A stretch of DNA of 64,000 nucleotides, taken from NCBI GenBank assembly GCA_001839685.1, contig MLAK01000685.1:1-64000 (forward strand), written 5' to 3'. A program made the position numbers and the translations under genes. The notes beneath the pieces were generated by a model. It ran no database searches and had not been told where the DNA came from. It was given only the letters and a program-made list of their open reading frames with translations. Shown here piece by piece: positions 38,666-59,317 of this stretch. The stretch is from Tritrichomonas foetus. Its lineage: Eukaryota > Parabasalia > Tritrichomonadida > Tritrichomonadidae. Each line of letters begins with the position of its first letter. Position 1 is the first letter of the stretch.

Positions 38666-39730
38666 TTATACATTTCTTCTTTTTGTTTTATATTTATCAT
38701 TTCTTATTCTCTTATTTCTAAAATTAATTTCACCAAATTCTTCAGAAGAAGACTCATCCGATTCTGATTCTGTTTCCTCTTCTTCTTCTTCTTCTCCTTC
38801 AGCCTCTTCTTCCACTTCATCATCGTTATCTTCATTATCTTCATCATCATTATCAATATCTTCATCTTCATCATCATCGTTTTCTTCATCATATTCCTCA
38901 TCTTCATTAAAATCATATTCATCAACTTCATGTTTTTCATCTTCTCCAATTCGATCAAGGAATTTTTTAACAATTGGATTGTCTTTCAAATTCCTCATTA
39001 CGTACCTTGAACATTTATTTGAATTTGGTAAAGTTTGAATCAAATAGGTAGTTATTGGTGAAGCTAATAAAAATGCTTCTGGCCCAGAAATCGAAGCAAC
39101 TCTACCTTTATTTCGTTTAGAATTAGCTACAGCTTTTAATACTTGTGACCATGGTGCTGTCGGCGTTGCACCTTCATAGATTTGTTTGGGTGAATCTTCC
39201 ATCCAAACTCTGAATATTGGTGATTCTTCACCTTCAACAATTTGGGAGTACCAACGAACCCTTTCATCTGGGTTATCTACTGATGCTGAAAGACGACTTG
39301 ATTTAAATCCAACTGGATAAATGTATCGCTCAGTATGGAAATTAGATTTATCATAAATAATGCTTCCTATATTATGAATAAAACTATTAGGTGTAATAAT
39401 TATTGGATAATCCATTTCTAGAGCATTCAGTGGTTGTTTAGAATCATTATTTAACTTATTAGGTGCTGATTTATTAATCGATAAACTTGAAGCTTTATTC
39501 AAAGCTATGTTTGAAGAATTGATTGATGTGTTGTTGGTATTGTTGGACTGTATTCCAAGTTTCGTATCTTTAGAAGAATCAACGTTTGGTACTTTCTCGT
39601 CATGTATGGATTTTTTATTTTCTCTTAATGTTTGAGAGTTTTCATTCAAAGTTTGCTGCTGCAAGGGTGCAAAGGTAAGTGTATCTTGAATTGGTGGCAT
39701 TAAATCTAAACTACAGTTCTTTGATATTAG

Positions 39731-39808
<78 letters not shown>

Positions 39809-42800
39809 TTTATCAATTGAAGAAATTTTCGTTTTATTTTTAGACAGTGATGTTACGATGTAATTTTCTTTTGCTGCATATTCATATATGACTCCAGTAC
39901 GTCGAATTACGAAAAAATCCTGTGAAATTGCAGTGGATTCACTTAAAGAAGAAAAAATTGGAAGCTGAAGAATTTCTGATTGTGACCCAAAGCCACATTT
40001 CAATAATTTTGAAAAAAATTCGAATTCCATTTCTTTTGTCCATTCTTGAGGTGCAAATCTCCAACGAGGCGCATTTCCAAGTATATTAACCATTTCTTTA
40101 TCACTATGTCCATAAAATATTTGTCTTAATTTATGCATTGCATCAATACGTTGATCAAGCATGAAATAAGCAGCATGGAGTCCAGTTTGTTTAAAATCAT
40201 ATGGTTTTTCCATTTGTTTTTTTAATGCATTAATAAATTTACCGATTTCTTTAGCTGTTTTATTTTCAAGCTTCGCAGCTTGTTTAATATATTCAAAATC
40301 ATATATAAAGTTTGCGTCTGTATTAATTCCGAATTTCATTAAATAATTTATAAGAATATCTTTTTCTTCAAGCGTCCATGAATCATCGACGAAAGTGATC
40401 AAATTTGGATCAAATTTATTATGATACAAAAAGTTCATTTTCATTGTAGCTGCAATGCATTGTGCACGGTTGGATAGCCAGGGATAACTGATTTTTTCAC
40501 CATCATGCGGCATTACAATTTCTCGAATTTTTTCATCATCATCACATGAAAAGTAATCAAAATCATGACCATATTTATAAACACCTAATAAAAGTGATTT
40601 ATCCATTTCCTCAGTCCACCAATTCAACTTAATTGGAGAAAATATGCGAATTTTTTCATGATTTATCATATTCTTTTCAACAGCAATGTTTATGAAATAA
40701 CATAATTCAATTTTCTTAAGCAAGCCAGAGCGTCCTTGAATAATTTGTTGAATAAATTTTTCTTCTTTGAAAATCGTACTTTCAAATTTCATTTTATCAT
40801 CATATTCTGAAGCATTTGACGATTGCAAATATTCACAAATGATTGGATAAGAATTTGGCGGATTTATATGCGACATTGCAAATCTTAAAATATAACGTAT
40901 GAATGAATTAATGAAGTCATCAGAAATATTCATTCCTGTAAGTTCTCGAATTGCTTCATTTCTACCCCAACCAAAAGTAGTCACCCCATGAAGAAGTTTA
41001 TAGCCTTCCCATTTTGTCCATTGATGTGTTTCATTAATAAGTTTATCATGATTGTCTAATAAAGGATCGGATTTGTCGTTTGATTCATAAAAGTTGTCCC
41101 AAAATCCATCTAAATTCAATTCTTTAAAAAACAAAGGGCTAAAACAATATTTCCTGGATTCTTTTTCATCTTTTGTTGATTCACAAACTTCAACAAGTTC
41201 AGAAGGCTGAGGGCATTTATTTTTAAAAATGGATAAAATGGCAGCTTTTTGACAATAGTTTTGTTGATTGAATAATTGGTCTAATTCTACACCCGTTGAA
41301 TTATTTATTTCGTTAATTTCATTATCCAAACAATCAAAAACTTCCAATTTATATATATGTTTTAATGTACTTGCCTTTCCTAAATTCATTTCTTTTTCCC
41401 ATATAGAAAATGTTCCATCATGAATAATTAATGTTTGATAACCACTGTAACATTTTGGAAAACCTGAGGTAAGTGGGCAAACTGTATCAATAATTGGAAT
41501 TTTTGGATCAATCGATGAATTTAATTCATTATATTTCATGACATTGCAAAATTCAAATAAAACACTACAAAAATATTGTGAATCTGATGCAATTAAAATA
41601 CGTTCATTATTTTTTAACGAACGGTGAATTAAATAATCCAAGACTTCAATTTTCGTAGAGGAGTTCAATAAATTGGTAAGTGAAAAATAAAAAGCTGCAC
41701 CATGAATAAGAAGTGGATTTACACAAATTCGATGAATTTTATGAATTAGTGAGATGTAATGGCCGGATAGAATTTTATTTTTCTCTTCAAATAATAATTT
41801 TTTAATGATTAATTTTTGGGATAGGTTTAATGGACAATTAATTTTAATAATTTCTGGAATTTCTTTTTTATTATTTTCGTTTCTATCTTTTAAAAGCTCA
41901 TTTAATGGAGTTTGAATCAGATGTTGAATTTTTTTTGAAACATTTGATGTTTTATTTTTTGTATGTGTAACTCTCATGCCAACTATTAATTGATCTAAAG
42001 ATTTGTTTAATTCAACTAAGGCATCACCAGAGAGTTCATTTTCAGTAATTATGCAGAAATTCCAATGAATTGCAGATATTCGATCAATTTCATAAATTAA
42101 AACTTCAGGAGTCGTCAACATAACATGAAATTTCAAATTTCCATTATCATCCATGAAATCATATTTATGAATGATTTTACGCGATTCCTTAGATACATCA
42201 TATGATAGTGTAATCATTTTTTCATTTTTACGTAAAATTTCATACCAACTGAAAAATGATCGAATTGGAACAATGATTAGAAAAGGACCATTGTTGTGAT
42301 ATTTTTCATAAACTGTATTGACGAAAGAAGCGGTTGGTAAAATTGATTGAAAATAATAATCTTCTGTAAATGCTGCATCTTTTTTAGAGCGCCAACAATA
42401 AAGTATGTAATTGAAAGTCTCGATTTGTACACAATCAAGTTGTTTACCATGAAGTGTAAAATTTTTGATATATTCATGACTGTTAATTGGTTCATATTCA
42501 TTTGAATTATTGTCTTTATTCGGATAATTATACTGATGTCGAATATTGAAAAATGTGATATCTTTGATATTAACATCCTCTTCCCATGTTAAATCTTCAT
42601 ATGATAAATGCATCCATTTCATTAAATATTTTCCGTTTCTTATGGCAATAATTCGATCTGGAATATCAAATGACGAATCGTAAAAGGGTGGTTGAGTTTT
42701 GTGCATCTCGACTAGCATGTTATATTTAGCTAAAACCGTTGAACCGTGATTTGATACTTTTAATTCCGCCTCTGTCATCCATTTGCATCGCGAATAAGGT

Positions 42801-42925
42801 TGTTTTGCAATTTTGGTTAAATATACTGTCGATCCATTGGGTAAAATTCTGTGTCCTAAAACTTTTTCGAATTTTCTTTCTTCGGATTCAAGATGATTTC
42901 CAGATATTATTTCCCCTTCATCCAT
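38666..42925 (-). CDS. CHD-type chromatin protein: double chromodomain, dead SNF2 core, SANT-like repeats, FYRN/FYRC
   Basis: Residues about 20-60 and 88-128 form two chromodomains (DRIIAIRNGKYLMKWMHLSY, then EDLTWE). Residues about 160-530 follow a CHD6-9-type SNF2 ATPase: LHGKQLDCVQIETFNYILYCW, GPFLIIVPIRSFFSWYEI, LTTPEVL, IHRICVNPLLIHGA. The Walker A GLGKT is missing (FTEDYYFQSI at 186-195), and DEAH reads TENE (294-297). SANT-like segments follow at about 636-665, 769-800 and 850-880. After a 26-Asn run (about 1040-1065) comes a FYRN-like block (1184-1240: FHTERYIYPVGFKSSRL...W) and a FYRC-like block (1250-1310: SGPEAFLLASPITTYLIQTLP). An acidic stretch and basic tail (RNKRIRNDKYKTKRR) end the protein. 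It is nuclear, probably chromatin-binding without remodelling activity. An Inr-like TCATT lies at 42938-42942. Confidence 0.85.
39731..39808. repeat. (ATT)26 trinucleotide microsatellite coding for poly-Asn
   Basis: Twenty-six perfect ATT units on + (AAT on the coding strand) encode 26 Asn between the SANT-like region and the FYR domains. Confidence 0.95.
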
Positions 42926-43229: not shown

Positions 43230-45104
43230 ATGTTAAGTTCGATTTCTCGACATACTCGATCGTTTGCCGCAGCATCAGGACCAATAGTAGGTATTGATTT
43301 AGGTACCACCAACTCATGTGTTGCTGTTGTTGAAGGAGGAACACCAAAAGTTATTCCATCTTCAATTGGCGCCCATACAACTCCATCAGTTGTCGCATTC
43401 AATGAGAAAGGAAAGATGATTGTTGGTGACCAAGCAAAAAGACAATCAATTACAAATCCACAGTCGACTTTCTTCGCTACTAAAAGATTAATTGGTCGTC
43501 GATATGAAGATGAAATGACCAAGAGAAGTCAAACAATGGTCCCTTACTCTATTATCGAAGACAAGGAAAGCGGTGAGGCTTGGGTGAAAGACGCTCAATC
43601 AAAAATATATTCCCCAGCTCAAATCGGTGCTTATGTTTTACAATCGATGAAAGATACCGCATCAAAATACCTCAGAACGGACATCAAAAACGCCGTGATT
43701 ACAGTTCCAGCATATTTCAATGATTCTCAACGTCAGGCCACGAAAGATGCTGGAAAAATCGCTGGATTGAACGTAACCCGTATTATTAACGAGCCAACAG
43801 CTGCTGCCCTAGCCTATGGTGTAGAAAGGAAGCAAGGTCAAACAATTGCTGTTTTTGACCTTGGTGGTGGCACTTTTGATATATCTATTCTTGAAATCAG
43901 CAAAGACGGTATTTTCGAAGTGAAAGCTACAAATGGTGATACTTTCCTCGGTGGTGAAGATTTCGATCAAGTTATTATCGATCATATTGTCAAGAAATTC
44001 CGTGAAACGAATGGAACTGATATCACTGGTGATATGTTAGCTATGCAACGTATTAGAGAAGCAGCAGAAAAGGCCAAATGTGATTTGTCTGGTTTATTAG
44101 AAACTGAAATATATCTTCCATATATTGCATCGACTCCATCTGGTGTCCAGCACCTAAAAATGTCACTTTCTCGCTCAGATTATGAAGCAATGGTTCGACC
44201 ACTCATTGATCGTACAATTTCACCTGTTTCTCGTTGTCTCAAAGATGCAGAATTGAAACCGTCTCAAATTAATGAAGTTATTTTGGTTGGTGGAATGACT
44301 CGTACACCTGCTGTTGTTAATCGTGTGAAAGAATTCTTTAAGAAGGATCCTTACACTGGTGTTAATCCTGATGAAGTAGTTGCAATGGGTGCAGCTATTC
44401 AAGGTTCAGTTTTACAAGGAAAAATGAATCAAATTGTTTTACTTGATGTTACACCTTTATCACTTGGTATTGAAACAATGGGTGGAGTTTTCGCTAAACT
44501 TATTCCAAGAAATACTGTTGTTCCTTGTAAGACTAGCGAAACATTTTCAACAGCAGTTGATGGTCAAACTAATGTCAATATTAAAGTTTATCAAGGTGAA
44601 CGTGAAATGGTTAAAGGTAATAAATTACTTGGTGATTTCACATTAAAAGGAATTCCACCAATGCCACGCGGAATTCCAAAGATTAAAGTTACCTTTGAAA
44701 TCGATGCAAATTCAATCGTACACGTTTCAGCTGAAGAAACCAATAGTGGAACAGAAACAGAAATCCAAATTAAACAACATGGTGGACTTTCCCAAGATCA
44801 AATTGCACAGATGATTAAAGATGCTGAAGCACATCATCTTGAAGATGTTAAATCACGTTTAATGGCTGAAAAACGTCTTGATATGGAAAGTTTCATATTC
44901 AACGCAGAAAAAAGAATGGCTGAATGTGCAAATATTTTGCCAAAGGAATTGACTGATGAAATAAAGAAAGAATTAGGTGAACTTCATTCAATCTTGAATA
45001 CTGCAACAGATGGTCAATTGAACAGGAAGTTCAATGGTGTTAAGAAATTAACAGATAAGATGCAACAGATTATTCGTGAAGAAAATGCTAAAAATAGCCC
45101 ATAA
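43230..45104 (+). CDS. mitochondrial-type Hsp70 (hydrogenosomal)
   Basis: A DnaK/mitochondrial-type Hsp70 chaperone, 624 residues, with intact motifs: [11 protein letters not shown] (19-29), [45 protein letters not shown], and a full substrate-binding domain. The first 16 residues ([16 protein letters not shown]) are a short Ser/Arg-rich presequence, as in hydrogenosomal import, with a likely cleavage near RSF. Organellar Hsp70 drives import through the TIM channel and folds imported proteins. That, with the absence of other mitochondrial genes, supports an organism with mitochondrion-related organelles. The ER-type C-terminal KDEL and the cytosolic EEVD end are absent. TCATTT at 43219 is a likely initiator. 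Confidence 0.95.
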
Positions 45105-58784: not shown

Positions 58785-59317
58785 TTTTGTTTTCTTTCTT
58801 GATTACTTATTTTACTTTCTTGATTGCTTATTTTTCTTTCTTGATTATTTCTTTTTCTTTCTTGANNNNNNNNNNNNNNNNNNNNNNNNNNNNNNNNNNN
58901 NNNNNNNNNNNNNNNNNNNNNNNNNNNNNNNNNNNNNNNNNNNNNNNNNNNNNNNNNNNNNNNNNNNNNNNNNNNNNNNNNNNNNNNNNNNNNNNNNNNN
59001 NNNNNNNNNNNNNNNNNNNNNNNNNNNNNNNNNNNNNNNNNNNNNNNNNNNNNNNNNNNNNNNNNNNNNNNNNNNNNNNNNNNNNNNNNNNNNNNNNNNN
59101 NNNNNNNNNNNNNNNNNNNNNNNNNNNNNNNNNNNNNNNNNNNNNNNNNNNNNNNNNNNNNNNNNNNNNNNNNNNNNNNNNNNNNNNNNNNNNNNNNNNN
59201 NNNNNNNNNNNNNNNNNNNNNNNNNNNNNNNNNNNNNNNNNNNNNNNNNNNNNNNNNNNNNNNNNNNGATTACTTATTTTTCTTTCTCGATTACTTATTT
59301 TTCTTTCTCGATTATTT
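58785..59317. repeat. 21-bp tandem repeat around an assembly gap
   Basis: Copies of GATTACTTATTTTTCTTTCT-like units begin at 58801, 58822 and 58843, and again at 59268, 59289 and 59310. Between them are 402 N (58866-59267). The unit length is a multiple of three, so frames on both strands stay open across it, but no gene is supported. Confidence 0.85.
58866..59267. other. assembly gap (402 N)
   Basis: A run of N within the tandem repeat. The true repeat copy number cannot be read. Confidence 0.98.

Follow-up and report, generated by a model that had tools for sequence, protein, structure and literature searches.

A CHD-type protein with degraded ATPase motifs and a FYR module in Tritrichomonas foetus, and its family of live and dead paralogues

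The window, i.e., the whole 64,000-nucleotide stretch analysed here (positions 1 to 64,000 of contig MLAK01000685.1 in the T. foetus assembly GCA_001839685.1), carries on its minus strand, at 38666–42925, an open reading frame of 1419 codons that runs from ATG to stop in a single frame with no internal stop and no N. Its product unites chromodomains, a dead SNF2 ATPase and FYRN/FYRC domains in one frame, an arrangement that had been proposed in an earlier note from the letters of the sequence and is confirmed by the frame itself, by Pfam and by alignment with the paralogues found in the same assembly. These paralogues are designated below by C numbers, and are called live or dead according to whether the catalytic motifs of the ATPase are kept or lost. 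The features of the window gene are as follows.

38666..42925, minus strand: whole ORF, dead-ATPase CHD-FYR protein of 1419 aa, one frame, no N
42710..42871, minus strand: chromodomain 1, residues about 19–72 (alignment with 11 live paralogues; live chromo profile, 78.1 bits)
42536..42670, minus strand: chromodomain 2, residues about 86–130 (alignment; best Pfam Chromo stretch 99–123)
41891..42463, minus strand: degraded SNF2 lobe 1, residues about 155–345 (Pfam SNF2-rel_dom, 26.7 bits; live lobe-1 profile, 73.2 bits)
42341..42370, minus strand: former Walker A, reading FTEDYYFQSI, residues 186–195 (alignment with live paralogues)
42035..42046, minus strand: former DEAH, reading TENE, residues 294–297 (alignment with live paralogues)
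41246..41848, minus strand: degraded SNF2 lobe 2, residues about 360–560, motif VI arginines absent (alignment; six-row profile covers Chd1 lobe 2)
39926..41128, minus strand: middle region, residues about 600–1000, with Myb/SANT-like and CHD1-HTH-like stretches (live middle profile, 94.8 bits)
39230..39409, minus strand: FYRN, residues 1173–1232 (Pfam)
38993..39220, minus strand: FYRC, residues 1236–1311 (Pfam)
38669..38989, minus strand: acidic C-terminal tail, residues 1313–1419, 49% D/E (residue composition)

A run of 26 asparagines (window positions 39731–39808, minus strand; ORF residues 1040–1065) lies between the middle region and the FYR module. The acidic tail was considered as a family trait and rejected, a 40-residue stretch with at least 50% D/E being present in 4 of 28 rows (the window gene, C175, C474 and C197). 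The initiator pattern of the Trichomonas vaginalis type occurs within 60 bases upstream of 8 of 21 genes, at −17 in the window gene; with about 7 such occurrences expected by chance on a rough estimate, it is uninformative here. The divergently oriented neighbour at 43230–45104 on the plus strand looks, by eye, like an Hsp70/DnaK gene whose short N-terminal extension resembles an organelle-targeting sequence. The assembly gap in the window (402 N at 58866–59267) is far from the gene.

In the window protein the Pfam FYRC and FYRN domains are adjacent and score far above their curated cut-offs (67.4 bits against 21 and 65.5 bits against 24, respectively), which bears out the reading of these blocks by eye. 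The two chromodomains also stood: Pfam Chromo matches in two stretches (34.6 bits, cut-off 25.1), and both the profile built from live paralogues and the alignment agree. SNF2-rel_dom is barely above its cut-off (26.7 against 24.9 bits, residues 198–347), and for Helicase_C, the remaining domain named in the earlier note, no match is listed. The second lobe was identified by alignment and by a profile built from the six dead members of the gene's clade, the window row by itself being absent from the matches of the live lobe-2 profile at an E-value of up to 10. The SANT-like segments noticed earlier correspond to Myb matches in the middle region that are present but stay under the Pfam cut-offs (20.7 against 24.4 and 14.4 against 22.9 bits), as does HTH_CHD1_Hrp3 (18.9 against 27 bits). 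AlphaFold2 models of the single window sequence had no value (mean pLDDT 34.7 and 34.3), so the assignment of folds rests on sequence profiles.

The loss of the motor is seen directly in the alignment. FTEDYYFQSI stands opposite LADEMGLGKT of the live paralogues and TENE opposite their DEAH, and the motif VI arginines are absent, in line with the earlier note, which had called the last helicase motif degenerate; hallmarks of an active SNF2/CHD ATPase are thus missing. Among single residues, the Walker A lysine and threonine and the motif II aspartate are gone, the motif II glutamate aligns with a glutamate, and motif III is lacking as well.

Tandem chromodomains and homology to both SNF2 lobes (for lobe 2 of the window protein via the alignment and the clade profile) place the protein among the CHD proteins. 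Compared with the sequences of solved structures, its best match is chain 6ftx_W, annotated as 'Chromatin-remodeling ATPase' (E 6.4e-21, residues 98–433), and the next six rows are Chd1; the best FYR match is the FYR domain of TBRG1 (2wzo; E 4.1e-14, residues 1182–1308). The six-member dead-clade profile gives 6ftx_W at 2.6e-62, aligned over residues 123 to 842, and Chd1 at 1.1e-58, with both lobes covered, and the TBRG1 FYR domain at 1.8e-27. The CHD6-9 identity suggested earlier was not confirmed, Chd1 ranking above CHD4 in this comparison with solved chains. CHD subfamily II (CHD3-5) is marked by PHD fingers and subfamily III (CHD6-9) by BRK domains. No PHD finger is listed by Pfam for the window protein at E up to 10 (matches above about 0.1 are mostly filtered out), nor are BRK, HTH_CHD6-9 or, again at E up to 10, a SET domain. 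Among the relatives, HTH_CHD6-9 stays under its cut-off of 27 bits in two paralogues (C201, 15.9 bits; C175, 21.5 bits), and CHDCT2 is matched under its cut-off in the clade mate C272 (21.0 against 27.7 bits), in which alone the CHD1 HTH exceeds its own (28.4 against 27 bits).

The assembly that contains the window comprises 63.7 Mb in 1064 contigs. Matches were counted in it as lower bounds, one search having scored 33 of 73 candidates. At least 25 FYRN matches, all above the cut-off, and at least 23 FYRC matches were found, every FYRC on a contig with FYRN; C137 and C123 have FYRN with no FYRC match. Neither domain was matched in 14 control genomes. In 24 of the 25 genes FYRN and CHD-like sequence share one open frame of 1219–1909 codons. 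Twenty-three genes were read whole, while C137 (1719 codons) and C123 (1564 codons) were each read in two pieces with the middle unread, their single frames being based on equal lengths of the FYRN and SNF2 frames and on frame arithmetic. The remaining gene, C548, consists of a CHD ORF of 1283 codons and, no more than 12 bases further on, a FYR ORF of 711 codons that uses a different frame. At its junction (L043:6900-7130) an AT-rich palindrome is visible by eye, which might stem from a small element of palindromic type or from a fold-back in the assembly. No SET domain was found by Pfam in 19 family sequences (the window protein, 17 complete paralogues and, of C548, the FYR half), and the SET matches of the assembly (at least 7) are all on contigs other than those of the 25 FYRN matches. 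Every FYRN found thus goes with CHD-like sequence. Judged from the sequences, FYR is a property of the CHD family as a whole, live and dead, and not of the dead member alone. The fusion of a pseudo-remodeller to FYR reported in the earlier note is therefore real, whereas the pairing is not special to it, as FYR is common to a family of 25 CHD genes of which 11 are live. In the same assembly, C392 (L048), C297 (L050) and C180 (L049) are long CHD-like ORFs whose ATPase motifs are degraded and in which FYRN is not matched; the end of the C297 ORF resembles, by eye, a remnant of a FYR-containing C-terminus. Overall, the 63.7 Mb hold at least 75 Chromo and at least 46 SNF2 matches.

Eleven of the 25 genes are live, keeping ADEMGLGKT together with DEAH or DEGH; RCHRIG is found at motif VI in all nine in which this motif was covered (C137 and C123 being uncovered there). 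The other 14 have lost the catalytic motif set. All of these lack the Walker A T/S and ten the lysine, which C651, C244, C863 and C642 retain; the D and E of motif II are both kept in three (C183, C175 and C244), and both motif VI arginines, in this alignment, in C114 only. Because 4 of the 14 keep the Walker A lysine and 3 the motif II pair, the dead genes that retain these residues may encode proteins with residual nucleotide binding. With profiles built from the live rows for the chromodomains, lobe 1, lobe 2 and the middle region, each of the 14 dead proteins was matched in at least one of the four regions, against a background in which the best of 850 shuffled proteins reached 10.4 bits. 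The window protein scores 78 bits for the chromodomains, 73 for lobe 1 and 95 for the middle region, and the weakest dead match is C642 (25 bits in lobe 2, 77 bits in the middle region). Among the 14, the lobe-1 profile misses C642 and C165, the lobe-2 profile the window protein, C454 and C244, and the middle profile C651 and C244.

The 25 rows, with the four motif stretches removed, were used to build a maximum-likelihood tree. With regain of the motor disallowed, it requires four losses; in 200 bootstraps the number was 3 in 25, 4 in 132 and 5 in 43. The window gene falls in a clade of six dead paralogues (support 100/100), whose sister is the live C536 (85/97). C651 with C244 (100/100) and the C144-C165-C863-C642 group (100/100) form a second and a third dead group, and the dead C183 and C486 are nested in the live C3 group (99/98), with support of just 73/58 for grouping the two together. 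Adding the three FYR-less dead rows (28 rows in all) gave the same groups. Thus the 14 dead genes probably arose in about four separate motor losses, a number better taken as a minimum, as the long branches of C165, C244 and C642 may attract each other.

Live and dead genes differ in what is conserved. The mean pairwise identity among the live genes is 0.31 for the chromodomains, 0.49 for lobe 1, 0.56 for lobe 2, 0.22 for the middle region and 0.29 for FYR; in the window clade the corresponding values are 0.32 (10 of 15 pairs), 0.24, 0.28, 0.28 and 0.41, the FYR values of 0.29 and 0.41 not being directly comparable because the live set is wider than the clade. In the three other dead groups the lobes are at 0.16–0.28 and FYR at 0.32–0.44. 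The best-kept part is hence the motor in live genes and FYR in each dead group; judging by these identities, the pattern is inverted and constraint has moved from the motor to FYR in the dead genes. In the window clade 65 columns are invariant over all six rows: 22 in FYR (within its 143 residues), 25 in the middle region, 18 in the lobes and none in the chromodomains, the last because C474 lacks the chromodomain part in the alignment. At 24–28% identity, part of the alignment of the lobes may be wrong.

Long branches and lost catalytic motifs are what would be expected of a decaying pseudogene without function, either the window gene alone or as one of a set, but this explanation is improbable given that none of the 14 dead frames (1219–1909 codons) is interrupted. 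The window protein is 26–28% identical to its five clade mates, with its frame still free of stops. Neutral substitution was simulated with the base composition of the gene, in 10 runs for each identity level; no run gave fewer than 8 stops at 90% identity or fewer than 71 at 35%. Pair identities span two lineages, yet even the mild simulated level yields stops. Moreover, FYR of the window clade, at 41% identity, is conserved about as highly as in the five near live genes (43.5%). A split of the locus, in which the FYR module would form its own gene downstream and the single frame would be a prediction artefact, has a parallel in the adjacent ORFs of C548; we regard it as very hard to credit for the window gene, whose ORF contains neither stop nor N, the more so as FYRN shares its open frame with CHD-like sequence in 24 of the 25 genes.

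The degraded lobes might alternatively serve as a nucleosome or DNA clamp with a structural or allosteric role of their own, perhaps paired with live CHD-FYR paralogues. The 18 invariant columns in the lobes (G213, P214, L216 and I217 of motif Ia, P404, S423-T424-K425 and others) point that way, as does the match of the six-row dead profile to Chd1 over both lobes; on the other hand, of the regions measured in the window clade, lobe 1 has the lowest identity (24%), and lobe 2 (27.5%) is no better kept than the middle region (28%). We therefore consider the clamp rather unlikely. The interpretation we prefer, and hold to be reasonably probable, is that the window gene encodes a CHD1-like remodeller that has lost ATP binding and hydrolysis and has been kept as a chromatin adaptor; the dead genes in general look like maintained non-enzymatic chromatin adaptors with a MOM1-like fate.

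In such an adaptor the chromodomains and the SANT/HTH-like parts of the middle region would continue to dock on nucleosomes or DNA; the degraded lobes would act mainly as a scaffold, and FYR would recruit the partners that it has in the live CHD-FYR enzymes. The dead proteins would then act at chromatin by tethering or competition and leave nucleosomes unmoved, comparable to plant MOM1, which functions without the motor derived from CHD3. The docking step is weakened by the fact that the live chromo profile matches only 10 of the 14 dead genes (C114, C474, C863 and C642 are missed) and 4 of the 6 in the window clade. The CHD1 chromodomain has KWxxW at its cage stretch, and KIAKQPY of window chromodomain 1 presumably occupies that position. 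With this reading at the cage, and with the strongest constraint of the dead genes in FYR, the role of histone-mark reader once suggested for the protein is not established.

The component domains were known before, as is a degenerated CHD motor, from MOM1. Among the matches listed in the non-subscription literature (titles and starts of abstracts) there is no CHD-FYR fusion and no pseudo-remodeller of this kind, nor do these matches describe FYR linked to CHD in as many as 25 genes or a motor lost repeatedly. As a single genome holds 11 live and 14 dead relatives that share the additional module, it allows roles of remodellers beyond nucleosome moving to be asked about, and FYR, a poorly characterised module, is tied here to remodellers in cis.

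With the CHD1-type remodellers (yeast Chd1, human CHD1) the window family has in common the double chromodomain, the two SNF2 lobes and a CHD1-HTH-like stretch, and Chd1 is the best solved relative of the window protein, of its dead clade and of the nearest live paralogue. The window protein differs from CHD1 by the missing catalytic motifs and its family by the presence of FYR, which is not known from CHD1. The FYRN-FYRC module is shared with KMT2/MLL, TBRG1 and plant demethylases; unlike in KMT2/MLL, SET is absent from the 19 family sequences scanned with Pfam. On balance it seems more likely than not that in this lineage FYR has become a standing partner of CHD remodellers in place of SET enzymes, and that about four independent turns to FYR-centred motorless adaptors produced the 14 pseudo-remodellers among the 25 genes. 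For T. vaginalis, a review describes a large expansion of bromodomains and chromodomains (PMC8638923), with which the present family offers a concrete set of genes to compare; a T. vaginalis epigenome paper mentions CHD1 once and FYR never (PMC5366954).

Two further systems offer parallels. In plant MOM1, a CHD3-derived silencing factor, the remaining SNF2 motifs are dispensable and another domain does the silencing (PMC2507757); the motif loss in the window protein would be consistent with a similar independence from the motor. MOM1 is likewise a CHD descendant with a degenerated motor, and can be considered a precedent for such a descendant becoming a motorless factor; it differs in being derived from CHD3, in having its own CMM2 domain and in lacking FYR, while in T. 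foetus the motor was lost about four times in one genome. FYRP, a FYRC protein of the Trypanosoma brucei ISWI complex, is weakly bound within that complex, and its knockdown derepresses silent VSG expression sites (PMC4646403). There, too, a FYRC protein acts alongside a SNF2 remodeller in silencing, in agreement with the link between FYR and remodellers seen here, and FYRP can serve as a precedent for a FYR protein that assists a remodeller in this role; in T. brucei, however, it is a separate subunit and the ATPase is ISWI, whereas in the window family FYR is fused in cis to CHD.
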